Source of the DNA: Blautia sp.
GTDB lineage: Bacteria; Bacillota; Clostridia; Lachnospirales; Lachnospiraceae
DNA: 35,891 nucleotides
Direction of reading: 5' to 3'
Assembly: GCA_022770365.1 (NCBI GenBank)
Contig: JALEHU010000080.1
Span: 1 to 35,891 of the forward strand
Below are positions 5,052 through 35,730 of this stretch, in pieces. How positions within the stretch are numbered: the stretch's first letter is position 1; each line of letters opens with the position of its first letter. A program made the translations under genes and the position numbers. The notes under the pieces were generated by a model. That model was not told where the DNA came from. It was given only the letters and a program-made list of their open reading frames with translations, and made no database searches.

Positions 5052-6956
5052 TTATAATAACAATTCCGGTTCGATCCGCTTAATATGCGATTCCAGAGTT
5101 GTGCGGTCAACAAGTGCCGGGACGACACCCTGTCTGGAAATACAGAATCCGGCCGCATAATTAGCGATGCGGATGGACTTTTCCAGTGAATATCCGTCCG
5201 TCAGACAGGAAGCAAGGCAGGAAATAAAGGCATCTGCGCCTCCGGTGGTGTCTATCGGGGTAAAGTCAGCCGCAGGAAAATATCTGGCAGTGTCGTTGGT
5301 TTTCAAATAACATCCGCGAGAGCCGAGGGTAATGATAACGTTTGGAATGCCCTGACAAAAAAAGTATTCTGCCTGATCCTCAATAGTACCGTATTCCGGA
5401 GGACTGAGCAGTGAGGCTTCATAACGGTTGGGGATAAAAAAGTCAATGTAGGAACAAAGCTCACCTGGCATAGCTTTAATGACAGTTGGTTTTAAAAAGG
5501 TCTTAGCTCCATATTTTCTGGCGGTTTTTGCTGCCTCGAGAGTTGTTTCGTTTGTCAGTTCGGTGGAGATGAGACAGCATCCGGAATTTTTGAATAAATG
5601 CTGGCGCTGCCAGATGCATTCGGGGGTCAGATTACTGTTGGCTCCTGCGAGAACGCTGATCGCACTTTCACCGCTTTCCTCAATATAAATATATGCTTTT
5701 CCGGTAGGGAAATTCGGATTTCGCTGGATGCCCTGCGTGATTACATGTTCTTTTTCCAATTGGTCAAATATCAGATTGGAGTCAATGTCATTGCCGATCT
5801 CTCCGATCAGGGAAACTTCCCGTCCGAGTTTGGCTGCGCCTACAGCCTGGTTGGCGCCCTTTCCGCCAAGGGAAAAAGTGGAATTCAGGATTCTTGTAGC
5901 TTTCCCAGTCTGCGGCAGAGAATCTACATTAAAAGTCAGGTCTGTGTTGATGCTTCCTACTACAACAATTTTTTTGGAACGAAGGAAAAATGGTACGTAG
6001 AGGCTGTCTTCGGTATCCAGGGAGCAGTCTCCGGAAAAAGAAACTCCTGCATCTGTATCCGCTGTTTTTTCACATTTCTGTATGATTGCTTTTCCGATAT
6101 GATAGCCGAACTCTTTGTACGGGATACTGATGCTGGAAATATGCGGATAGGAAATAGCCTCCCTGACTTCGTCCTTCAGGCTGACAACAGACAGATCGGA
6201 AGGGATGGAGTAATGAAGCCGGTCCATATCCTCATAAAGAGTCAGAGAAGAGGAAAAGTGTGAACTTACTACTCCGGAGAATTTGTGTCCCAGCAGTTCG
6301 GTGAGATAATCCGGGTTCCCGATGGAAATTTCCATAGAGTTATGGTATGGAATGTGGTTGTCAAACAGACATTTTCGGAATCCTTCCAGAACCATCATGG
6401 AACGCTGGCTGTCAGGTTTTATCAGACAGGCGATTTTTGCATGTTTATAGTCAATCAGTTTCTGAGTGAGCAGGTATCCCATTTCCTCGTAATTGATTTT
6501 GAAAGAATGGGGATTGTCTTTCTCCATGATATGGATGAAAGGGATATTCTGATCAGTCAGGTAATGCTCCAGCTGGTGACTTTTGGCATTGACGGGTTCC
6601 CAGATCACACCGTCCACACGTTTCTGAGAGAGGGCGTTAATGTGTTTCAGCTCCAGATCCGGACGGTTCTGGCTGTCAAAAAGAAGAATGCTGTAATTAT
6701 ATTCCGCCGCGGCTTCTGCAATACCTGAAAGCATGGAATTGGTGCGGGGCATATTGGAAAGCACAACTCCCAGTATGAACGTCTTGGCGGTGGAAAGGTT
6801 TTTTACCATGCCATAGGGAGTGTAATTATATTCTTTTACAATTTCCAGAACTTTGTTGCGGGTTTCTGCTGCAATGTTCTGGTCTTTATTATTTACGATC
6901 TTTGAGACAGTGGAAATGGAAACACCTGCTAAAGCGGCGATTTCTTTGATTGTCAT
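5052..6956 (-). CDS. LacI-family repressor fused to a PfkB/ribokinase domain
   Basis: The 634-residue protein joins two families. Residues 1-50 are a LacI helix-turn-helix (MTIKEIAALAGVSISTVSKI), ~60-320 a periplasmic-binding-protein-like sensor, and ~325-634 a ribokinase fold opening VVVGSINTDLTFNVD with GGKGANQA. The start at 6956 is set by AGGAGG eight bases upstream; a longer frame to 7121 lacks a site and precedes the HTH. The kinase domain keeps the Asp of the PfkB C-terminal signature, but reads DTTGGADAF where active enzymes have DTTGAGD, so the anion-hole glycine is displaced and activity may be altered. It is divergent from a complete ribokinase gene, with a palindrome over its own -35. 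Likely role: repressor of the ribose module, sensing a pentose or its phosphate. DNA binding is confident; catalysis is open. Confidence 0.9.
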   Translation of the reverse strand: MTIKEIAALAGVSISTVSKIVNNKDQNIAAETRNKVLEIVKEYNYTPYGMVKNLSTAKTFILGVVLSNMPRTNSMLSGIAEAAAEYNYSILLFDSQNRPDLELKHINALSQKRVDGVIWEPVNAKSHQLEHYLTDQNIPFIHIMEKDNPHSFKINYEEMGYLLTQKLIDYKHAKIACLIKPDSQRSMMVLEGFRKCLFDNHIPYHNSMEISIGNPDYLTELLGHKFSGVVSSHFSSSLTLYEDMDRLHYSIPSDLSVVSLKDEVREAISYPHISSISIPYKEFGYHIGKAIIQKCEKTADTDAGVSFSGDCSLDTEDSLYVPFFLRSKKIVVVGSINTDLTFNVDSLPQTGKATRILNSTFSLGGKGANQAVGAAKLGREVSLIGEIGNDIDSNLIFDQLEKEHVITQGIQRNPNFPTGKAYIYIEESGESAISVLAGANSNLTPECIWQRQHLFKNSGCCLISTELTNETTLEAAKTARKYGAKTFLKPTVIKAMPGELCSYIDFFIPNRYEASLLSPPEYGTIEDQAEYFFCQGIPNVIITLGSRGCYLKTNDTARYFPAADFTPIDTTGGADAFISCLASCLTDGYSLEKSIRIANYAAGFCISRQGVVPALVDRTTLESHIKRIEPELLL

Positions 6957-7034
6957 TGGCGGCCTCCTTCTATGAAGGGATTTTTTATTTGCTGATGAAT
7001 ACTGAAATTTATATTTCCAGCATTCTGTTTCTTT

Positions 7035-7075
7035 ATTATGTGGTATAAGAAATGAATTGTCAATCCATAGATTGA
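7035..7075 (-). promoter_or_regulatory. Promoter of the LacI-kinase gene with overlapping palindromic operator
   Basis: On the minus strand a consensus -35 TTGACA (7063-7058) and -10 CATAAT (7040-7035) are exactly 17 bases apart. The perfect inverted repeat TCAATC-CATA-GATTGA (7060-7075) overlaps the -35. It lies in the divergent region shared with rbsK, so the LacI fusion could repress itself and influence rbsK from it. The operator role is inferred. Confidence 0.6.
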
Positions 7076-7135
7076 TAGATGTGTCTAAAAAAATAGTTGA
7101 AGAAAAAGTTTTATTAAACATAAATGATAAAAATA

Positions 7136-18045: not shown

Positions 18046-19142
18046 ATGAGAAAAATCGGTGTAAAAGAGATTGAAGATATGGCAGTGGGTGCTGCTGTAC
18101 TTGGAACCGGCGGCGGAGGAGATCCTTATATCGGAAAGCTGATGGCAATTCAGGCGATCAAAGAGTGCGGCGAAGTGGAAATGATTACTCCGGAAGAGGT
18201 TCCGGATGATGCAATTGTAGTTCCTTCTTCTATGATGGGGCACCTACCATTCTGGTGGAAAAAATCCCGAACGGAAGTGAGCCGTTCAGGACATTTGATG
18301 CCCTGGAAAAACTGAGAGGCACGAAAGTATATGCGACCATGTCCATCGAAGCAGGCGGATTGAACTCGATGATTCCGTTTGTTCTTGCGGCCAGAAGAAG
18401 AATTCCTATTGTAGATGCGGATTCCATGGGACGTGCATTTCCGGAACTGCAGATGACAACCTTCCATCTGCATGGCGTGACCTGTGCACCGATGGTTCTC
18501 AGTGATGAAAAAGGAAATACCGTTTCCATGGATACCATTGGAAATAAATGGACGGAGGACATTGCCAGAGCGGCAACTGCGGTCATGGGCGGTTCTACAT
18601 TCATGGCGTCTTATGCCATTGACGGTAAGACTCTGAAAAAAGCCTGTGTTCCGTATACAGCTTCGAAATGTGAGCAGATCGGACGTGCGATCCGTGAAGC
18701 AAAAGAACGGAATATCAGCCCTGTTGAGGCTGTTCTGGAAGTGATGGGGGGCTTTGAATTATTCCGCGGAAAAGTGGTAGATGTAGCCAGAAAGACGGAT
18801 GGCGCTTTTGTGCGCGGTACTGCAGTACTGGAAGGTATTCTGGATTATAAGGATCAGACCTGTGAAATCTGTTTCCAGAACGAAAATATTATCGCGAAGG
18901 TTGGAGAGGAAGTGCTTGCAACAGCCCCGGATCTGATCATCAATCTGGATACGGAGACGGGTCTTCCGGTTACTACGGAGGGACTGAAATACGGTGCCAG
19001 AACAGTTCTGATTTCTGCGCCCTGCAGCCCGCAGTGGAGAACTCCTAAGGGACTCGAAACAGTTGGTCCCAGATATTTCGGGTACGATGTGGATTATGTG
19101 CCGGTGGAAGAACGCGTAAGCAGAAGAAAGGAAATGAAGTAG
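18046..19142 (+). pseudogene. DUF917 / S-methyl-thiohydantoin desulfurase-family gene, frameshifted
   Basis: Two overlapping frames encode one protein of about 365 residues. The first part (MRKIGVKEIEDMAVGAAVLG, with GTGGGGDP) ends in an unrelated tail and stops at 18315. The rest resumes one base out of frame from about 18241 (PTILVEKIPNGSEPF...). A single G is missing from the run at 18237-18240: with five Gs it would read SSMMGAPTILVEK without a break. The family is PF06032, formerly DUF917, which sits beside hydantoinase genes; members have been linked to thiohydantoin desulfuration. Its placement one base before the hydantoinase gene fits a joint pathway. RBS AAGGAAG stands about eight bases before the start. 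The break may be a true inactivation, a phase-variable G-tract, or a homopolymer sequencing error; all later codons are intact, which favours a recent or artefactual event. Confidence 0.82.
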
Positions 19143-26259: not shown

Positions 26260-27441
26260 ATGAACACGTCAGAACGCTTATTAGCTACGTTGAATTTCGA
26301 AAAGCCGGAGGACAGAGGGGCATTTGCGGAGACTTTTTTTCCGTGGACGCTGACCGTGGAACGATGGCTGAAAGAGGGGATTCCGGAGATATTTACAGCG
26401 GATTATTTATACCCTCAGGCGAAGGACCGGAGCAGAAGATACTTTAATGATCTGATGACAGATCCGGTTTATGAGTATGAACAGTTTCTGGGTCTGGACG
26501 GGGTAAAGAGAATGTCTTTTCGTATTCCGTTCAAATGTTTTGATGAGCAGGTACTGGAGGATACACCGGAATTTACTTTGAAACTGGACGAAGACGGATG
26601 GCAGAGAAAATATTATAAAACGAGAGATCTGGTTCAGGAAATAAGACCGGTGATTACGGAAGAGGAAGACTGGCCGCTGTTAAAAGCAAAAATAGAGTCT
26701 GAACTGGAGCATTACTGCAGTAATGAAAAGCTCCGGGAAATCTATGGGAAATATACAGACGGGCACAGAAATGGGGGATTCTCCATTCGATTCAGGGCTT
26801 CCGGATTTTTCTGGACGGCGAGAGAACTTCTTGGTGTGGAAGAGCACCTGATCGCTTTTTATGAAATGCCGGAGCTGCTGCATGAGATCAATGATTTTAT
26901 TCTGGAAAAATATCTGGAGTATTTCGATAAAATTTTCAGCCTGATCCAGCCGGAAGTGATTTTGTTTGAGGAAGATTTGAGTGGTGTGAACGGACCGATG
27001 ATATCGCCGGAAATGTTTGACGAATTTATCGGTGCCTATTATAAAAAACTGATCCCGTTTCTGAAGAAAAAAGGTGTGAAAAATGTATTTGTGGATACAG
27101 ATGGTGATTTCAGACAGCTGATACCCAATATGCTGGCAGCAGGCGTGGATGGCTTTCTGCCTGTGGATGTGAATGCCGGGATGGACATCGTGGAAGTGAG
27201 AAAACAGTTTCCAGGTGTAAAACTGATCGGAGGCTTTAATAAACTGGCCATTGCAGATGGGAAAGAAGCTATCGATAAAGAGTTTGGGCGGCTGATGCCT
27301 GTTATCCGCCAGGGCGGGTATATCCCCGGAGCGGATCATCAGGTGGCGCCATCCACTTCTCTGGAGAATTACCGGTATTACCTGGAGTGTCTGAAAGAAG
27401 CGATGAAAGATGCAGGTATTGATGCGCAGCAGATTAAATGA
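26260..27441 (+). CDS. Uroporphyrinogen decarboxylase (UROD)-fold protein
   Basis: A 393-residue TIM-barrel protein of the UROD/MtaA/CmuA family. It opens MNTSERLLATLNFEKPEDRG and ends with the UROD-like ...GFLPVDVNAGMDIVEVRKQF, GGFNKLAIADGKEAI and GGYIPGADHQVAPSTSLENY segments. True HemE has an RQAGR motif near its start that is absent here, so this is not haem synthesis. Paralogues act in methyl transfer in anaerobes, and many lie in carbohydrate loci with no known reaction. AGGAGG precedes the start by a few bases. No corrinoid protein or methyltransferase activator lies next to it; the MalY-like gene is about 95 bases downstream and may be in the same operon. Function undetermined. Confidence 0.85.
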   Translation: MNTSERLLATLNFEKPEDRGAFAETFFPWTLTVERWLKEGIPEIFTADYLYPQAKDRSRRYFNDLMTDPVYEYEQFLGLDGVKRMSFRIPFKCFDEQVLEDTPEFTLKLDEDGWQRKYYKTRDLVQEIRPVITEEEDWPLLKAKIESELEHYCSNEKLREIYGKYTDGHRNGGFSIRFRASGFFWTARELLGVEEHLIAFYEMPELLHEINDFILEKYLEYFDKIFSLIQPEVILFEEDLSGVNGPMISPEMFDEFIGAYYKKLIPFLKKKGVKNVFVDTDGDFRQLIPNMLAAGVDGFLPVDVNAGMDIVEVRKQFPGVKLIGGFNKLAIADGKEAIDKEFGRLMPVIRQGGYIPGADHQVAPSTSLENYRYYLECLKEAMKDAGIDAQQIK

Positions 27442-27466
27442 AGCATAGAAATATAAAGGTTTCATA

Positions 27467-27496
27467 AGCACAAAGTGCGGAGAAATCTGTGCATCA
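27467..27496 (+). repeat. Dispersed 30-bp element, copy 1 (upstream of malY-like gene)
   Basis: AGCACAAAGTGCGGAGAAAT plus ten further bases, matching the last 30 bases of the window (35862-35891) at 28 of 30 positions. It can fold as GCAC-AAA-GTGC and as CGGA-GAAA-TCYG, a stem capped by a GNRA tetraloop; the differences leave pairing possible. It lies in the 95-base gap before the MalY-like gene. Confidence 0.75.
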
Positions 27497-27536
27497 GAGA
27501 GGCAAAAATACTATTTACCAACAGGAGGAACAGATT

Positions 27537-28739
27537 ATGAAGTACGATTTTACATCAATCATAGACCGCCATGGAAAGGATGCCATTGCGATAGACAAAC
27601 TTGGCGGAGGCGGAACGGCGCCGGATCTGCCGAAGGAAGGATTTGACGCTATCCCTATGTGGGTGGCGGACATGAACTTTCCGACAGTGCCCACGATTCA
27701 GGAGAGTATCATAGAACGTGTGAAGCATCCCATGTATGGATATTTCGACCCAACGGACGAATATTATGATTCCATCATTCGCTGGCAGACAAAGAGAAAC
27801 GGCGTAACAGGACTTACGAAAGAGTGCATCGGATACGAAAACGGTGTTCTCGGAGGCGTGATATCTGCCCTGATGGCTTTTGCATCGCCGGGAGATGCAG
27901 TGCTGCTTCACAGTCCGACCTATATTGGCTTTACCGGAAGTATTACCAGCAGGGGCTTTAAAATTGTCCACAGCCCGCTGAAACAGGATGAAAACGGCGT
28001 CTGGAGGATGGATTTTGAAGATATGGATGCAAAGATCAAGGAAAATCATATCCATGCGGCTGTTTTCTGCAGTCCACATAATCCATGCGGCCGTGTATGG
28101 GAACGCTGGGAAATTGAAAAAGCCATGGAAGTGTACAGAGCCAATGACTGCGTGGTGATTTCGGATGAAATCTGGTCTGACATTATTCTGGAAGGGAATC
28201 ATCACACTCCGACACAGTCCGTCAGTGAAGACGCGAGGAACCGTACCATTGCCCTTTATGCACCCAGCAAGACCTTTAACCTGGCCGGACTGATCGGAAG
28301 CTATCATATCATTTACAATCCGTATCTCCGTGACCGGGTGCGGGCTCAGTCAGAAAAATGCCACTACAATTCCATGAATGTACTTTCCATGCATGCACTG
28401 ATCGGCGCATATAAACCGGAAGGCTATGAGTGGGTGGACGAGCTCTGTCAGGTATTGACGGGGAATATTAACTTTGCTTGTGATTATATTGGGGAGCATT
28501 TTGAAGGGGTGAAAGTAAGCCGGCCGCAGGGAACTTATATGCTGTTTCTGGACTGCTCCGAATGGTGCGAAGCCCATGGCAAAACCATTGATGAGGTACA
28601 GAGAGCCGGATGGGATGTGGGAGTAGCATGGCAGGACGGCAGGCCGTTCCATGGACCATGTGCGATACGTATGAACCTTGCATTGCCGTTTTCGCGGGTG
28701 AAAGAAGCATTTGAACGTCTGGATAAATATGTATTCTGA
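27537..28739 (+). CDS. MalY/PatB-family PLP-dependent C-S lyase/aminotransferase
   Basis: The 400-residue protein is a fold-type I PLP enzyme of the MalY/PatB class. FDAIPMWVADMNFPTVPTIQ at the start, CSPHNPCGRVW in the middle, SDEIWSDIIL and the PLP-binding Lys245 in YAPSKTFNLAGLIGSYHII identify it. Members cleave cystathionine or other cysteine S-conjugates to pyruvate, ammonia and a thiol; MalY of E. coli also represses the maltose regulon. The start at 27537 has AGGAGG about eight bases upstream, and 27489 lacks a site. It lies about 95 bases after the UROD-like gene and 75 bases before the large STAND gene, so the three may be co-transcribed; no terminator is visible between them. Confidence 0.9.
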   Translation: MKYDFTSIIDRHGKDAIAIDKLGGGGTAPDLPKEGFDAIPMWVADMNFPTVPTIQESIIERVKHPMYGYFDPTDEYYDSIIRWQTKRNGVTGLTKECIGYENGVLGGVISALMAFASPGDAVLLHSPTYIGFTGSITSRGFKIVHSPLKQDENGVWRMDFEDMDAKIKENHIHAAVFCSPHNPCGRVWERWEIEKAMEVYRANDCVVISDEIWSDIILEGNHHTPTQSVSEDARNRTIALYAPSKTFNLAGLIGSYHIIYNPYLRDRVRAQSEKCHYNSMNVLSMHALIGAYKPEGYEWVDELCQVLTGNINFACDYIGEHFEGVKVSRPQGTYMLFLDCSEWCEAHGKTIDEVQRAGWDVGVAWQDGRPFHGPCAIRMNLALPFSRVKEAFERLDKYVF

Positions 28740-28814
28740 CAGACCATATCGAGCGGAATTTTCCGGATGGAGGAAGGGCAGTATCCATTGACAGAGGGAA
28801 CGGAAGGAGGACGT

Positions 28815-31800
28815 ATGAAAAATATTTTTGTATCAAGCACATTTCGGGATTTTCAGTACGAGAGAGATTGTCTGCGAAGCCAGGTGATTCCGGCCCTGAA
28901 CGAAACGGCACGGAAGTACGGGGAGTCTGTTGATTTTTGTGATCTGAGATGGGGCGTGGATACTACAGAGGAATACGAAAAAGCAGCCGAAAAAGTAATT
29001 TCGGTATGTCTGGATGAGATTGACCGTTCCCGTCCCTACATGCTGATCCTTTTGGGCGAACGATATGGTTTTGTGCCGGATCCATCCGTAATTTCCCTCG
29101 AGGCTCACAGGCGGAAACTGGAACTGGAAGAACTGGAAATCAGTGTAACGCAGCTGGAAATCGAGTATGGTATTATGAAAGATTCGAATACCTGTCGGCA
29201 TACACTGATTTATTTTCGCGAGATCAGGGAAGTCTCCGGGAGAAAGCCCGGCAGGGAATATCTGCCTGAGAATGAGGATTATCAGAAAAAAATGTCAGCG
29301 CTGAAAGAACGGCTGCTTCGTCTTAGCGGAGCAGAAGTCCGTTTTTACCGTGTGGATTCGGATAAACTGGATGATCTTGATGAATTTGCCGGTATGGTTC
29401 AGAGGGATTTTCTTCATCTGCTGGAAGATGAATGGAAAAAAGTCGCTCTCATGAATGTGTTCGAAAAAGACAATTATGCACAGTGGAGATTTCTGGAAGA
29501 AAAGGCGAAATATTTTTCTGCGGGAAGAGGATTTGCGGATCAGGTAATCGCGTGTCTGGAAGAGGAAAAAGAGACGAAACCGGTAATGCTGACAGGGGAA
29601 TCCGGAAGTGGAAAAACCACCTGTTTCAGCCATATCTGTTCTGAAATGAAAGAACGAAAATGGGATGTAATTCCTGTATTATGCGGGAACACTTCCCTGT
29701 CTGTAAGCCGGGAGGGACTCCTGAAATCTGTCGTCTGGCAGGTGGAAAAACTGTTAGGAGAACCTCATTTGTCAGAGGATCAGATGGAAGGGGAAGAACA
29801 CGCCGGAGAAGGCACAGAGGAGAACAATCCGGACAGGTACAGAAGGATGTTTATGCAGCGCCGTTTAAAAAACAGGCTCTCAAAACTCTGCACCATTTAT
29901 GAAAAAACAGACAGGCATCTTCTGATTGCTTTTGATGGTCTTGATCAGTTATCGGATATGGAAAACCTGGAGAACTTGGAGAACTCCGGCCTGTTTCCGG
30001 ATGAAAGCTTCAGAAATGTCAGATGGCTGGTGACCGGTCCGGATACACTAAAAAAACCGGGATCGGTTCACGGACTTTACATGCCGTTTTTTGAGGATGA
30101 AGATAAAAATGCCGTGATCGAGGAAATTCTTGCCGGAAAAGGCAAGCAGCTTTCTTCTGCTGTGAAGGCAGCAGTACTTGGGAAAAAGTCAGCCTCAAAT
30201 CCCCTTTATCTTTATCTCCTGATCAACCGCATGTGCCTGATGAATGCCGAGGATTTTTCTTTTATTGGCAGACAGGGAGGCTCTATTGATGCGATTAACC
30301 GGAGGCAGCTGGAGCTGGTCGGCGGTTACTCGGATGATCTGCAGGAAATGTCCCGGGAACTTCTGTTTATGATCGCAGAAATGCTGGATTCGAAAATGCC
30401 GGGCTCAAAGATGATAGAAGGATGTCTGCAGTATATGGGAATCTCCAGATACGGACTGCGTCTGGCGGATCTGGAAGTTCTGCTGAAAGAGGATGGAGAC
30501 CGTTTTGTACCTGTCGTTTTTTTGCAGATGGTACACTTTATCAGTGAATTGTTTTTGCTGAGGAATGACGGAAGATATGATTTTATGCATAGTTCTCTTC
30601 GGGAAGGAATCTGCAGGGCGATTTCGGATAAAAAAGAAATACATCGCAGGCTGGCGTGCTATTTTCTTTTGCTCCCGGAACAGGATCCCATACGTCAGCA
30701 GGAAGTTCTGTATCATATGATCTGTGCCGGAATGACCGGGGAGGCAATGAAATATGCAGCCGGGATCGGGGAAAATACTGTGCCGGCCGGATATGCTGCG
30801 GAGACGCTTTACGGTCAGTGCATGAAGGATCATGGGGCATGGGTGCTGCACACGATGAATTCTGCAGGAAATGATCTGCAGAGTTTGGAGGATTTTTGTG
30901 GTTTCTGGAGCTTTCTGGAATGTGAGGTGTCAAAGCGTTTCAGGGAAAACAGGGATGCGATGGAAATCTGGCAGTCTGTTCTGGAAGAGGCGCTTCCTCT
31001 TCTGGAAGAACTGGCAGAAGAACAGACGAAAAAACTGACAGAAAGATCAGAGGGAAAAGAGAATTATGTGAGCGGCTATTTATATCGGATTCTTTATCTT
31101 GCCTATGAACAGATTGGAAAAAACCTGGAGCTGACGGAGAATGCGGAGAATTTTGACCGGGCATATGAGTATTACAGGAAAGAAATCAGCATATGTGAGA
31201 CGCTTGCAGACCGGTATAAAAGCGCTCACCATTATTCGGAACTTGCAGTGGCCTATGATAATATGGGTTCCTTTCTCAACAGTATGGGAGATGATAACAA
31301 CCGGGAAGGTTCCCTGAAATTTCTGGAACAGGCAGCTGCGATCAACAGGGAAATTGTACGGCAGGTTCCTGATGAAATCTATATCAGAAATCTTGCTCTG
31401 GCATGCGGAAAAATTGCAAGAATTCATCTTGAAAGGCGAAGAGTTCAGGATATCGAAAAGGGGATGAAGCTTCTCAGAGAAGCAGAAACGCTGATGCGAA
31501 GCCTGATGGAAAAAAATCCGTCTCCGGAGAACCGTTTTGAACTGGCAGCAACGCTTGGAGATCTGGGTGGTGTATACAGGATTTCAGGCGGAAGAAAAAA
31601 TATAGAAACAGGGATCCGCCTTTATGAAGAAGCACTGCAGATGAATCAGGATCTTTATACAGATTTTCATTCGGTCAGAAGTCTTGGAAATTTAGTAAAT
31701 GTATATCTTGCTCTGGGTGAAACCTGCGAGAAAATGGAGGAACGCGTATATGATCAGTATGCATTGTCCTGTTATAAAAAAGCACTTTCTTATGCTGAAA

Positions 31801-34451
31801 AAGCAGCACAGAGCAGCCGCCTGTCGGATGGCGTGAGAAAACAGGTCAGTGCCTGCAATGCTGCGGCAGAACTCCTGGTAAAAATGGGAGAAGAAGAAAC
31901 CATGAACCTGGCACTTCAGTATCTGTTATGTGCGGGCAGTCTGGCTGTGGAACTTTATGAAAAAACGGGAACTTACGTAAACAGGATTCTTGTCGGGGAT
32001 GTTCTGTGCCGGACTGCTAAGGTATATGGGCTTCTTGGCACAAAGGAGAATCTGGAAACGGCACTGCAATTGTATCAGGCAGGCAGAGAGATTTATGAAG
32101 AACTGGACAGATCAGAATTTACATCGGAAGCAGTGAGTGAGAAGTTAGCTTCGGCCTTTTCCGGAATCGGGCATATTTATAAATGTATGGGCGGTGTACT
32201 TAATTTCCGAAAAGCGAAGCCGTATTATGAAAAGTCCATGGAGATTACGGAAAGAATTATTGCAAAATACGGAAAGTCCGAAGTGCGCAAACGCAATATA
32301 GAAGTGGGAAATCATGAGATCGGTGAGATGTATCTTCAGACAGGTGACTGGGAGAAGGGGCTGGAATATCTTCGGAAGGGACGGCAGATTGCAGAGCAGC
32401 TGAAAGATGAGAATGACACAGTACAGCATCTGTGGGATCTTTCTTATAGTCTCAGATTGAGTGCTCAGGGATTTCTGGCAGGAAATAAAACAGCAGAAGC
32501 TCTGGAATGTTACCGTAAAGCTCTGGAAATCCGTATGCTGATCTGTGAGAGACAGGATACTTCGGGAAATCTGAAATCCCTGATGATCAGTTATCAGGAT
32601 GCGGCAGAGGCATATCTTTATTCCGGGAATAAAAAGGAGTGGAACAAAGCCGGAGAGTATATGAGAAAAGCCTGTGAAATTGCAGAGAAACTGGAACAAA
32701 GCTGTAATACACTGGAAATACAGAGAAATATTGCCGAAGTGTATGTAAATACGGGCGATTATTTTTCGCAGGCGGAAGAAAACAAAGAGGTGCAAAAAGC
32801 ACTGGAATATTATAGCCGTGGAGTCCGTATTTTTGAGAAAATCACACCGATGATCCAGACTTATCGGGTATCTGTTGAATGTATTTCCACTTACGGAAAA
32901 ATAGCGCATCTCTATATGAGAATAGGGGATGAGACAAAGACAGAGGCATATTTTGCCCGTGCACTGGATGCGGCAGAACAGTTTTTGAAATGCGATGCAC
33001 AGCCGGAATATAAACTGATGATTCCTGATATTTATATGGATATTGCCGGGTATTATGAAGAATCTGAAGATCCGGACAAGCTGGAAAAATGTGCGTGGAT
33101 GTACGAAAAAAGCATAGAAATCTATAAGGAAGTATTGGCTGTGTCGGAGGACGATTCTGTGTACGGAAATCTGGCTTCTGTTTATTTCGGTGCCGGAGAA
33201 CTGTACAGCCGTATGGAAAGGCCGGAGAATGCGCTGCGCTGTTATCAGAAGAATATGGAAATAACGGAAAGACTTTCCGAAGAGAGCAGGACACAGCAGA
33301 GAATTATCTGTGCGTATACAAGCTGCGGCAGAATCGGATACATTTATGCACAGATGGAAGAATTTCAGAAAGCACTGGGGTATTTTGCGAGGGCAGTAAA
33401 AGAGGAAACAGATGCCATTATGAATCTGAAAGAGGAGTCCTTTGCAGCGGAGATTCTTGTGGATCTTCAGAAGGACTCTGCTTATATGGCTGTTTTGTGT
33501 GTCATGTGCGGGGAATATGACCAGGCGATGAAAAATTACGACCTTGCGATTCAGGTTCTTATGCAGCTTGCAGAAGCGGCACCGGAAGAATTTGAACCGG
33601 AACTTGCCGGGATATGCCGGCGTCAGGCGGAACTGATGATGGAATGCAGGAGACCGGAGAAGGAAGTCAGAAAGTATATTGCAGCTGCGATGAATATTTT
33701 CCAGAGATATCCGGGATATGAAAGAGAGTTTGCTGAACTTGCAGAAATGCTGGGATACAGACGGGAAGAAAAATTGAAAGAAGAATCAAAAGAAGAAGTT
33801 AAAGAAAAACCGGCTGAAGAGAATGCTGCGGCGAAAAAGAGAATTGATATTTATGAATTTGCAGATGCGATATTGTCAGAAGGCAGGGAAGATCAGGCGC
33901 TGGAATTGTATAAAAGGTATGCAGAGCTGGTGGAGGGCATTCCTTGCGGCAGTCTTTCTGTGAAAGAACGGATATATCGGTATAATTGTTACAGCCAGAT
34001 GGGATTTATCCATGTTCAGAAAAAAACGAGAGCCGATTATATGATTGCGATTCATTATCTGGAAAAGGCAGTGTGTCTGGAAGAAGAAGCAATGAAGCTT
34101 CCGGGAATGGAGGAAAGAAAAGAGGAAATCATGAGTGATCTGAAAGACGACTGCAGCAGTCTGATACAGCTTAAGGAGGCTCTTCGTAAATTTGAAGATG
34201 CGGAAATGTATTACAGGAAAGCTGTGGATACTCTGCGAATACTTTCAGAGACAGTGCCGGAAAGATACATAAAAGAATATGTGCGGATGTGCATGAAATA
34301 CGCAGTATATCTTCTGGGATTCCGGCAGAATGTGGAAGAAGGTGCAAAAATGCTCGCCAGGTGCGCAGAGATTGTGGATAAGTATCCGTGGATGGAGGAA
34401 GAACGGGAAGCCCTGTCTGCGATGATTGCGCCGTTTATGAGCGGAGAATAG
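28815..34451 (+). CDS. DUF4062-STAND NTPase-TPR protein (candidate defence/signalling ATPase)
   Basis: A single 1878-residue protein. Residues 1-~95 form a DUF4062 domain (NIFVSSTFRDFQYERD, then CDLRWGVDTTEE at 42-53 and LGERYGFVP at 80-88), as in eukaryotic TEP1, NPHP3 and NWD1. An AAA/NACHT-like STAND NTPase follows, with Walker A GESGSGKTT (261-269), Walker B LLIAFDGLDQL around Asp374/Asp377, and a winged-helix region to ~630. From ~755 to ~1650 there are tandem TPR-like helical repeats, a charged linker (~1652-1678, EESKEEVKEKPAEEN) and a last TPR block to the end. In STAND proteins the repeats hold the switch closed until they bind a partner, then the NTPase oligomerises and the N-terminal domain acts. 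The start has GGAAGGAGG upstream; no partner gene lies next to it. An anti-phage role is an inference from architecture. Confidence 0.9.
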   Translation: MKNIFVSSTFRDFQYERDCLRSQVIPALNETARKYGESVDFCDLRWGVDTTEEYEKAAEKVISVCLDEIDRSRPYMLILLGERYGFVPDPSVISLEAHRRKLELEELEISVTQLEIEYGIMKDSNTCRHTLIYFREIREVSGRKPGREYLPENEDYQKKMSALKERLLRLSGAEVRFYRVDSDKLDDLDEFAGMVQRDFLHLLEDEWKKVALMNVFEKDNYAQWRFLEEKAKYFSAGRGFADQVIACLEEEKETKPVMLTGESGSGKTTCFSHICSEMKERKWDVIPVLCGNTSLSVSREGLLKSVVWQVEKLLGEPHLSEDQMEGEEHAGEGTEENNPDRYRRMFMQRRLKNRLSKLCTIYEKTDRHLLIAFDGLDQLSDMENLENLENSGLFPDESFRNVRWLVTGPDTLKKPGSVHGLYMPFFEDEDKNAVIEEILAGKGKQLSSAVKAAVLGKKSASNPLYLYLLINRMCLMNAEDFSFIGRQGGSIDAINRRQLELVGGYSDDLQEMSRELLFMIAEMLDSKMPGSKMIEGCLQYMGISRYGLRLADLEVLLKEDGDRFVPVVFLQMVHFISELFLLRNDGRYDFMHSSLREGICRAISDKKEIHRRLACYFLLLPEQDPIRQQEVLYHMICAGMTGEAMKYAAGIGENTVPAGYAAETLYGQCMKDHGAWVLHTMNSAGNDLQSLEDFCGFWSFLECEVSKRFRENRDAMEIWQSVLEEALPLLEELAEEQTKKLTERSEGKENYVSGYLYRILYLAYEQIGKNLELTENAENFDRAYEYYRKEISICETLADRYKSAHHYSELAVAYDNMGSFLNSMGDDNNREGSLKFLEQAAAINREIVRQVPDEIYIRNLALACGKIARIHLERRRVQDIEKGMKLLREAETLMRSLMEKNPSPENRFELAATLGDLGGVYRISGGRKNIETGIRLYEEALQMNQDLYTDFHSVRSLGNLVNVYLALGETCEKMEERVYDQYALSCYKKALSYAEKAAQSSRLSDGVRKQVSACNAAAELLVKMGEEETMNLALQYLLCAGSLAVELYEKTGTYVNRILVGDVLCRTAKVYGLLGTKENLETALQLYQAGREIYEELDRSEFTSEAVSEKLASAFSGIGHIYKCMGGVLNFRKAKPYYEKSMEITERIIAKYGKSEVRKRNIEVGNHEIGEMYLQTGDWEKGLEYLRKGRQIAEQLKDENDTVQHLWDLSYSLRLSAQGFLAGNKTAEALECYRKALEIRMLICERQDTSGNLKSLMISYQDAAEAYLYSGNKKEWNKAGEYMRKACEIAEKLEQSCNTLEIQRNIAEVYVNTGDYFSQAEENKEVQKALEYYSRGVRIFEKITPMIQTYRVSVECISTYGKIAHLYMRIGDETKTEAYFARALDAAEQFLKCDAQPEYKLMIPDIYMDIAGYYEESEDPDKLEKCAWMYEKSIEIYKEVLAVSEDDSVYGNLASVYFGAGELYSRMERPENALRCYQKNMEITERLSEESRTQQRIICAYTSCGRIGYIYAQMEEFQKALGYFARAVKEETDAIMNLKEESFAAEILVDLQKDSAYMAVLCVMCGEYDQAMKNYDLAIQVLMQLAEAAPEEFEPELAGICRRQAELMMECRRPEKEVRKYIAAAMNIFQRYPGYEREFAELAEMLGYRREEKLKEESKEEVKEKPAEENAAAKKRIDIYEFADAILSEGREDQALELYKRYAELVEGIPCGSLSVKERIYRYNCYSQMGFIHVQKKTRADYMIAIHYLEKAVCLEEEAMKLPGMEERKEEIMSDLKDDCSSLIQLKEALRKFEDAEMYYRKAVDTLRILSETVPERYIKEYVRMCMKYAVYLLGFRQNVEEGAKMLARCAEIVDKYPWMEEEREALSAMIAPFMSGE

Positions 34452-34513
34452 ATAAATGAGCAAGAGGGTAAATGAACGGATAAATAAACAGATGGATAAA
34501 AGAATAAAACATC

Positions 34514-34543
34514 AAAAGCACGCAATTATATTGCGTGCTTTTT
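34514..34543 (+). terminator. Rho-independent terminator after the STAND gene
   Basis: A perfect 12-bp stem AAAAGCACGCAA / TTGCGTGCTTTT with a five-base loop and continued T. It lies about 60 bases after the STAND stop. The remaining gap to the LacI gene (34544-34704) holds no gene. Confidence 0.85.
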
Positions 34544-34704
34544 GGTAATATGGTATAATAATACAAAGTTTTTATGAAGAGTCTATATGAACATGGAATG
34601 ATCGTGAAATAAGTGTGAAATGATCATGAGATGAACGGGTAATAGATCAGAACCGGAGTATTCCGGTTCCGGCAGCAGAGTATTCGGAAAGCAGGAGAGA
34701 GATT

Positions 34705-35730
34705 ATGGCAGTAACAATCCAGCAGATAGCAGAAAAAGCGAATGTATCCAGGGGCACCGTAGACAGGGCACTGAACAACCGGGGGCGTATTGATCCGGAA
34801 GTTGCGAAGCGGATCCGGCAGATCGCCGATGAAATGGGATATGTACACAAAGAACGGAAAAAGAATGCCGCGAATAAAAAAATAATCAAAATCGGAGTAG
34901 TGACTCAGCTTGCAAAAGCTTCCTTTATGCTGGAAATCAACAGAGGAATCCGGCAGGCGGGAGAAGAACTGAAGGACTGGGGAGTGGAAATCCTTTTAAA
35001 AGAGGGCTTTTCCGTGGATGAAGAGGAGCAGGTGCGTGCGATTGAAGAACTGGCTGAAGAAGGTATTCAGGGACTTGCGGTGATGCCGGTGGAATGCGAG
35101 CGTGTCCGCGAGAAAATCAACTGGCTGACGGAAGAGAAAAAAATTCCGGTGGTGACATTTAATTCAGACATAGTGGGTACCAGACGTTCCTGCTTTGTGG
35201 GAATGGATAACAGAAAAAGCGGGCAGACGGCTGCGGGCCTTATGGGAATGATGACAGGCGGCATTGGAAAGGTGCTGATCATTACCGGCTATTTCAGCAA
35301 TGTGGTTAATAATGCACGCGTGGATGGTTTCGTGGAAGAAATCAAGAAATCCTATCCAGACCTGGAAATTGCCGGGGTGCAGGGAAGCTTCGATGAGGCG
35401 GGAGAAGTGGAGCGCATTATTTTAAATGCCATGCGGGATATTCCGGGAATCAGCGGCATTTTTGTGGTATCCGGCGGGCAGGCTGGAGTAAAAACAGCCT
35501 TTGACAGTCTGGGACTTAAGAAGCGTCCGTATGTGGTTGTCTATGACCAGACACCCAGAAATGAAAAGGCGATTAAAGATGGTGTGGTAGATTTTCTGAT
35601 TGATCAGAATGGATTTTATCAGGGATACCGCCCGCTCTATATTCTTACCAATATGCTGCTGAAGGACATACAGCCTGAGGAAGAATTCCAGTTTACTGAA
35701 ATTAAGATAAAAACCAAGTACAATTTGTAA
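34705..35730 (+). CDS. LacI-family transcriptional regulator
   Basis: The 341-residue protein has an N-terminal LacI helix-turn-helix (TIQQIAEKANVSRGTVDRAL) and a periplasmic-binding-protein-like sensor of the type 4 class (IKIGVVTQLAKASFMLEINR, then VGMDNRKSGQTAAGLMG and FVVSGGQAGVKTAFDSLG). The RGTVDRALNNRGRI hinge side is characteristic of the subgroup that senses sugars such as ribose, inositol or xylose. AGGAGAG stands about seven bases before the start. The strong terminator upstream gives it its own transcription unit; its target is probably a sugar-use operon beyond the right window edge. Nothing links it to the STAND gene. Confidence 0.92.
   Translation: MAVTIQQIAEKANVSRGTVDRALNNRGRIDPEVAKRIRQIADEMGYVHKERKKNAANKKIIKIGVVTQLAKASFMLEINRGIRQAGEELKDWGVEILLKEGFSVDEEEQVRAIEELAEEGIQGLAVMPVECERVREKINWLTEEKKIPVVTFNSDIVGTRRSCFVGMDNRKSGQTAAGLMGMMTGGIGKVLIITGYFSNVVNNARVDGFVEEIKKSYPDLEIAGVQGSFDEAGEVERIILNAMRDIPGISGIFVVSGGQAGVKTAFDSLGLKKRPYVVVYDQTPRNEKAIKDGVVDFLIDQNGFYQGYRPLYILTNMLLKDIQPEEEFQFTEIKIKTKYNL

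Follow-up and report, generated by a model that had tools for sequence, protein, structure and literature searches.

A giant Blautia protein joins a TEP1-type DUF4062 domain to an NLR-type NTPase and may act as an NADase switch

DUF4062 was reported in a May 2026 preprint to be a TIR-like NAD+ hydrolase (NADase), both in the bacterial anti-phage system Swarozyc and in human TEP1 (PMC13174449). As described there, the Swarozyc protein KpSwz depletes NAD+ on sensing the phage portal, with a winged-helix AUX domain as its sensor, and the activity of TEP1 depends on E1008. Human NPHP3, NWD1, and NWD2, in which DUF4062 lies beside a NACHT domain, were inactive in the same NADase assay. A further related design is found in Avs5, an anti-jumbo-phage protein of the composition Sir2-nSTAND3-TPR/Sel1 with a known phage-protein trigger, whereas Avs3 and the other members of Avs1–4 carry nuclease effectors (PMC12931631). 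The main text of the preprint describes no bacterial protein in which DUF4062 is joined to an NTPase, although its supplement may show some. It was the sole paper found on DUF4062 function, other papers that mention the domain being judged by their abstracts, and a term search of PMC7159879, PMC8195603, and PMC9503650 gave no mention of TEP1 or NWD1. Here we describe such a bacterial protein, encoded by a giant gene in a 35,891-nucleotide stretch of DNA from Blautia sp. (contig JALEHU010000080.1), the whole of which is called the window below.

The gene encodes 1878 residues and a stop codon. A preliminary description of this DNA had proposed a DUF4062 domain, a STAND P-loop NTPase, and tetratricopeptide repeats (TPR) in one chain, and the open reading frame (ORF) together with Pfam matches above the curated cut-offs bears this out. 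A Pfam search, which it had suggested for the N terminus, places DUF4062 at residues 4–115 (42.5 bits, cut-off 24.7). The best NTPase match is NPHP3_N, a NACHT NTPase model, at residues 247–407 (33 bits, cut-off 24.8), and Pfam thus groups the domain with NACHT. TPR_12 reaches 87.9 bits (cut-off 30.1) and is accompanied by further TPR models. Because these matches pass curated cut-offs, they exceed chance. Both of the Walker motifs first reported are present, Walker A at residues 261–268 (GESGSGKT) and Walker B at 369–377 (LLIAFDGLD, of the DGxD form). The P-loop, the DGxD Walker B motif, a STAND-like predicted fold, and the adjoining repeat region together identify the central part as a STAND/NACHT module. 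Between residues 421 and 660 the sequence contains the stretches NPLYLYLL and FMHSSLRE, which we take to be motifs of the helical and winged-helix part of that module. The giant protein has no match in NCBIfam at 0.001. By the PADLOC profiles (2023 library) it matches none of the Avs/AVAST families, and the only matches are weak ones to TPR, AbiO, mad, and RtcR_PspF1 (CARF_AAA_HTH) models. The architecture, the homology, and the retained residues are solid. The parts of the gene are as follows.

28815..34451, + strand: giant DUF4062-STAND-TPR gene, 1878 residues (ORF and Pfam; same-start ortholog in a sister species)
28815..29444, + strand: residues 1–210, DUF4062, TEP1-type and TIR-like, predicted NADase effector (Pfam, match to TEP1 chain 11gz, tree, model)
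29157..29159, + strand: E115, predicted catalytic Glu corresponding to TEP1 E1008 (11gz alignment; 14 of 14 rows)
29454..30074, + strand: residues 214–420, STAND/NACHT-type P-loop NTPase
29595..29618, + strand: Walker A GESGSGKT, residues 261–268
29919..29945, + strand: Walker B LLIAFDGLD, residues 369–377
30075..30794, + strand: residues 421–660, probable helical and winged-helix part of the STAND module
30795..34448, + strand: residues 661–1878, many TPR matches, presumed sensor (Pfam TPR models; fastest-changing part of the protein)

When used alone, the DUF4062 domain of the window protein matches the TEP1 crystal chain 11gz over residues 4–208 with an E-value of 1e-19. A profile of 11 DUF4062-NTPase proteins (profile A1) finds TEP1 at 2e-42 (148.8 bits) and reaches KpSwz only at 0.007 (18.7 bits), over residues 3–20 only. 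Conversely, when the profile is built from four short DUF4062 proteins of the same bacterial family, KpSwz is found at 1.4e-56 and TEP1 at 0.013. In a tree of 39 domains, for which the program warns of long branches and no root was inferred, 23 long-type rows including TEP1 are separated from 16 short-type rows including KpSwz with 100/100 support, and the split keeps 100/99 on 149 widely filled columns. Models of the long and short classes, built without TEP1 and KpSwz, score TEP1 at 152 and 33 bits, respectively, and KpSwz at 23 and 193 bits. When 66 loci were scored with the class models, strong matches were one-sided only, with the proviso that many of these loci had also been used in model building. 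Lower scores were obtained for L019, L026, and L153, which are fragments or weak matches, and neither class model matched L090–L092, L150, or L151. Six further loci (L022, L030, L031, L082, L086, and L152) form a third, divergent DUF4062 group with lower scores on both class models.

The spacing between the SST and Glu motifs follows the same division. Among the 29 domains caught by the pattern, it is 75–85 residues in all 17 of the short type and 108–122 in 10 of 12 of the long type; of the other two, one has a spacing of 176 and one was counted to a wrong, later Glu. Long-type proteins are mostly large and carry a P-loop NTPase, a strict pattern finding Walker A in 18 of 20 and the Glu motif in 19 of 20. 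L075 has a variant Walker A, and L122 has neither motif by these patterns. On this evidence, DUF4062 is divided into a short type, that of KpSwz, and a long type, that of TEP1; the window protein has the TEP1 type, found here on NTPase proteins. By profiles, tree, and class models alike, the window protein lacks the KpSwz-type domain that would make it a Swarozyc member. The preliminary description, which regarded DUF4062 as having no assigned activity in bacteria, a statement outdated by the Swarozyc NADase (PMC13174449), missed that this domain is of the TEP1 type and not of the type tested against phage. Judged by sequence, what is new is the joining of a bacterial TEP1-type DUF4062 domain to an NLR-type NTPase, a combination with no earlier description in the literature searched or in the main text of PMC13174449. 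Among the relatives, one congener (G858) has two different giant long-type genes on two contigs (L148 and L149), and a 1953-residue relative (L089, G291:C19) has its DUF4062 start in another frame, so that this gene may be broken or misread.

For 11gz, TEP1 numbering was inferred from an offset of 893, which puts positions 908, 954, 976, and 1008 on the Arg, Arg, Arg, and Glu residues named in the preprint. The window protein has R11, K60, R83, and E115 at these positions, so that the catalytic Glu and active-site Arg residues are retained and the R954 equivalent is a Lys. Across all 14 aligned long-type domains (alignment A5), neither E115 nor R83 varies. NADase activity of the window protein is predicted from its sequence, and we consider it probable. 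An AlphaFold2 model of residues 1–420, made with 11 sequences, has a mean predicted local distance difference test score of 82.7 and a predicted template modeling score of 0.70, and it consists of a five-stranded α/β domain followed by a P-loop domain. A fold ranking by Z, in which rows within 1 Z are ties, many ORC chains are interspersed, and the TIR-like part is barely probed, gives for the NTPase the plant NLR NRC3 (13.6) and, close behind, Avs3 with phage terminase (13.3), an ORC/Cdc6 complex chain (12.6), Dark (12.5), the plant resistosome 6j5t (12.3), APAF-1 (11.7), and CED-4 (11.3). In the model, the NTPase thus ranks nearest to the NLR NRC3 and the phage-sensing Avs3, tied with ORC proteins. 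The layout of effector, NTPase, and sensor first proposed for this gene agrees with these results; the effector is homologous to a proven NADase and the predicted NTPase fold is near those of NLR, Avs3, and apoptosome proteins, with ORC/Cdc6 similar.

Of the known proteins, human TEP1 shares the DUF4062 subtype, the equivalents of E1008, R908, and R976, and a NACHT NTPase directly after DUF4062. In contrast to TEP1, the window protein has TPR instead of WD40 repeats and is without TROVE, vWA, or vault; the domain identity is only about 31% (60 of 193 aligned residues), and NADase activity is shown for TEP1 but predicted for the window protein. NPHP3 has TPR after its NACHT domain, and its likeness to the window protein is one of domain order, DUF4062-NACHT-TPR. 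KpSwz is likewise bacterial and has a catalytic Glu in the same motif, but it differs in DUF4062 subtype, and its AUX sensor contrasts with the NACHT NTPase and the roughly 1200 TPR-containing residues of the window protein. Avs5 has the same order of effector, STAND NTPase, and TPR-type sensor in one chain, but with a Sir2 effector and an NTPase of another family.

Homologs of the gene are scattered. When 64 genomes of the genus, among them that of the window, were searched with the DUF4062 model, 11 gave a match, nine of them over the cut-off. An ortholog of the giant protein was found in two of the 64, namely the window's own genome and G474, an uncultured Blautia metagenome-assembled genome of a sister species (locus L004); the two giants of G858 are distant long-type proteins. 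BLAST with residues 1–662, run on 36 of the other 63 genomes, found no ortholog either, and the ortholog is absent from all 34 genus genomes with a completeness of 90% or more and a contamination of 5% or less, both carriers being 84–85% complete. DUF4062 is matched in 42 of 397 genomes drawn from the family; at least 12 of these carry a long-type and 17 a short-type domain (one in pieces), the remainder being other, weak, or not fetched. Again counting the window's own genome, 5 of 391 genomes of a class draw match profile A1 at 1e-25, and 5 of 398 of a phylum draw match the long-type domain at 1e-20. No clean empty site was found, and the PatB and LacI orthologs of the flanking genes were never side by side in the congeners examined. 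In two close cross-genus pairs of giants, L076/L077 (71% identity) and L079/L081 (80%), the partners have no common neighbor at an E-value of 1e-20 within 8 kb, L077 being cut by a contig end and L079 lying near one, so that one side was little tested. The distribution is patchy and the location changes, as the genus and phylum counts and the two cross-genus pairs show, and the universal conservation in syntenic metabolic loci that the preliminary description had named as evidence against a defense role was not seen. A Rhodococcus plasmid carries a relative (L154, NZ_CP054208.1; 1212 residues by coordinates), and two TIR-domain genes and one gene with WD40 repeats lie nearby.

Comparison with L004 reveals an uneven synonymous divergence (dS). 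The background dS has a median of 0.83 over 26 sampled gene pairs, one with an implausible frame, whereas seven upstream flanking genes have 0.10–0.30. The giant gene has 0.21–0.27 over most of its first 960 codons, with 0.52 in one 80-codon stretch, and climbs unevenly to 0.89 at its end; the LacI gene that follows has 1.11. Because a low-dS block stands against the background of 0.83 and dS rises within the giant gene, a recent exchange between the two species, with its edge inside the giant gene, is probable. The block (mostly 0.10–0.30) spans window positions 18255 to about 31700. Identity to the L004 protein falls from 95% (residues 1–130) to 63% (residues 1711–1860), and the effector is the best conserved part in two other close pairs too (93 and 87%). 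The ratio of nonsynonymous to synonymous divergence (dN/dS) is 0.21 for the whole gene and 0.26 for residues 1711–1860, compared with a background median of 0.057 and 0.016–0.14 in eight flanking genes. A conserved effector with a faster-changing sensor fits the pattern of immune receptors, and relaxed constraint fits too.

The explanation that we rate somewhat better than even is that the window protein is a single-chain, NLR-like NADase switch that probably acts against phage. At rest, its N-terminal TEP1-type TIR-like NAD+ hydrolase would be kept off. The NACHT/STAND NTPase would act as a nucleotide-driven oligomerization switch, and the TPR repeats would keep it shut and recognize a foreign protein, most likely one of phage origin. 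Once this ligand is bound, the NTPase would open, the TIR-like domains would be gathered in ring-type oligomers, and the loss of NAD+ would lead to cell death or a growth stop ahead of phage release. Among the possible roles, an anti-phage one is our first choice, with about an even chance of being right, because the nearest tested relatives are anti-phage (KpSwz for the effector and Avs5 for the logic, PMC12931631) and because the gene has a patchy distribution and apparently moves on its own.

Several observations weigh against this explanation, the main one being the absence of a defense-island association. The neighborhoods of 17 long-type loci in Clostridia were sampled, with L082, L086, and L090–L094 excluded as of another type; they contain 175 ORFs of at least 100 residues within 8 kb, of which 147 within 5.5 kb were scanned, together with 147 of the 183 control ORFs, which were taken from different contigs of these genomes. 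At 1e-10, 40 PADLOC families were matched from the neighbors versus 66 from the controls, so there is no enrichment in this coarse test, which counts families, not ORFs, and uses the 2023 library. The neighbor families are matched by one ORF each in nearly all cases and include, among those listed, PD-T4-6, PDC-S27, mad, Stk2, and MzaA models, while the control matches happen to include Hachiman, AbiE, and restriction genes. The clustering of homologs in defense islands that the preliminary description had proposed to look for is therefore not seen here. These neighborhoods are unlike the figures given in the preprint for bacterial DUF4062 homologs as a whole, of which about 20% lie in predicted defense islands and over half neighbor a known defense gene (PMC13174449). 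Of 17 adjacent same-strand genes, 10 were scanned with Pfam, and none is a known defense gene; four are metabolic or housekeeping and two signaling. They encode a Mur ligase, an HD-domain protein, a pyridoxal phosphate-dependent decarboxylase, a GFO oxidoreductase, YicC, a RyR-domain protein, a leucine-rich repeat/MORN protein, a histidine kinase, and two proteins without a match. The Pfam tally of neighbors is largely metabolic and regulatory in the 25 of 171 families listed, and only apparent two-component regulators recur between loci. Prophage or mobile-element surroundings were considered and rejected, the PHROGs tallies being alike for neighbors and controls (25 families listed for each).

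Further points on the same side concern the protein and its relatives. No homolog was found in phage records, the plasmid homologs number two and are both partial, and a scan of viral contigs, made with two short patterns only, confirmed none. At the position of TEP1 R908, two of six bacterial long-type rows (L149 and L155) have Asn, and L079, L081, and L085 have Lys. For the NTPase fold, ORC/Cdc6 AAA+ chains reach scores similar to those of immune proteins, and the dN/dS of the tail is below 1, which could reflect relaxed constraint. The literature searched holds no phage data for any TEP1-type bacterial protein, and the inactivity of NPHP3, NWD1, and NWD2 (PMC13174449) means that the DUF4062-NACHT layout does not guarantee catalysis.

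The protein could also be an active TIR-like NADase switch with a trigger other than phage, such as a plasmid or conjugation, a prophage or gene transfer agent, or internal stress, so that its role would be regulated cell death or dormancy. The metabolic genes beside it and the lack of an excess of defense families near its relatives are compatible with this, as is a bacterial CARD-NLR-like system reported to control the release of a gene transfer agent (PMC13236601). However, patchiness and the lack of common neighbors in the two close pairs are typical of immunity genes, and the DUF4062 and STAND-Sir2 proteins tested so far in PMC13174449 and PMC12931631 act on phage; we regard a non-phage trigger as unlikely. 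Still less likely is a non-enzymatic or scaffold protein like NPHP3, NWD1, and NWD2, with DUF4062 serving as an oligomerization or binding module. The inactivity of these three proteins (PMC13174449) speaks for it, and the best NTPase match is to NPHP3_N, but they may simply have lacked activators in the assay. Moreover, a scaffold would not be expected from the invariance of the catalytic Glu and the R976-equivalent Arg or from the effector being the best conserved part in all three close pairs. A STAND transcription regulator of the MalT/AfsR kind controlling the nearby PatB-like, MtaA-like, and nitrilase genes is very improbable even though MalT is among the weak NTPase matches (chain 8bob, E-value 0.0002), as no DNA-binding domain appears among the 25 of 32 Pfam families listed, only two-component-like regulators recur as neighbors at the 17 loci of relatives, and the N-terminal domain is homologous to a TIR-like enzyme.

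The start and surroundings of the gene complete the description of the NADase switch candidate. The mechanical ORF could begin as far upstream as 28767, but ATG at 28815 is preferred because AAGGAGG lies four bases upstream of it and because the ribosome binding site, spacing, and start are identical in the L004 ortholog; the strong ribosome binding site first reported is thereby upheld. The strong terminator reported with it corresponds to a hairpin that the scan lists as terminator-like on the − strand, although a reading on the + strand also enters a short T run; a comparable hairpin follows the L004 ortholog.

28804..28810, + strand: ribosome binding site AAGGAGG (read directly; also in L004)
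34514..34542, no strand assigned: terminator-like hairpin (scan, − strand listing; similar hairpin after the L004 gene)

The gene had also been said to stand alone, but as a transcription unit it may not: a PatB-like gene on the same strand ends 75 bases before it, and a scan of 27300–35000 finds no sigma-70-like site on the + strand before 31035. The metabolic neighbors in the window are the PatB-like, MtaA-like, and nitrilase genes, and a LacI gene lies 3′ of the giant gene. A foreign base composition was considered and rejected, the GC content being 0.450 for the gene versus 0.441 for the sampled genome, and tandem DNA repeats within the gene amount to one short, weak array. An Rpn-family nuclease or putative transposase gene (TIGR01784; 25020–25829, + strand) lies 3 kb 5′ of the giant gene, with the nitrilase and MtaA-like genes on either side of it, and is missing at the equivalent place in L004. 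Elsewhere in the window, 5052–7121 (− strand) encodes a 689-residue fusion of a LacI-type regulator and a PfkB-family sugar kinase.

We tentatively suggest, as a possibility rather than an expectation, that these gut-bacterial proteins are living counterparts of the TEP1 core module, complete one-gene NLR immune receptors distinct from Swarozyc, and that animal TEP1, perhaps with NWD and NPHP3, descended from such a receptor by a swap of the repeat sensor, the vault being added later. The role of TEP1 in the vault is a long-standing puzzle. If the proposal is true, a bacterial one-gene NLR kills by NAD+ loss through the domain subtype of human TEP1, and a compact bacterial system whose phage trigger can be found could reveal what activates a TEP1-type NADase. 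It would also link the TEP1/NWD/NPHP3 family by origin to bacterial immunity and add a defense system missed by the defense-island method.
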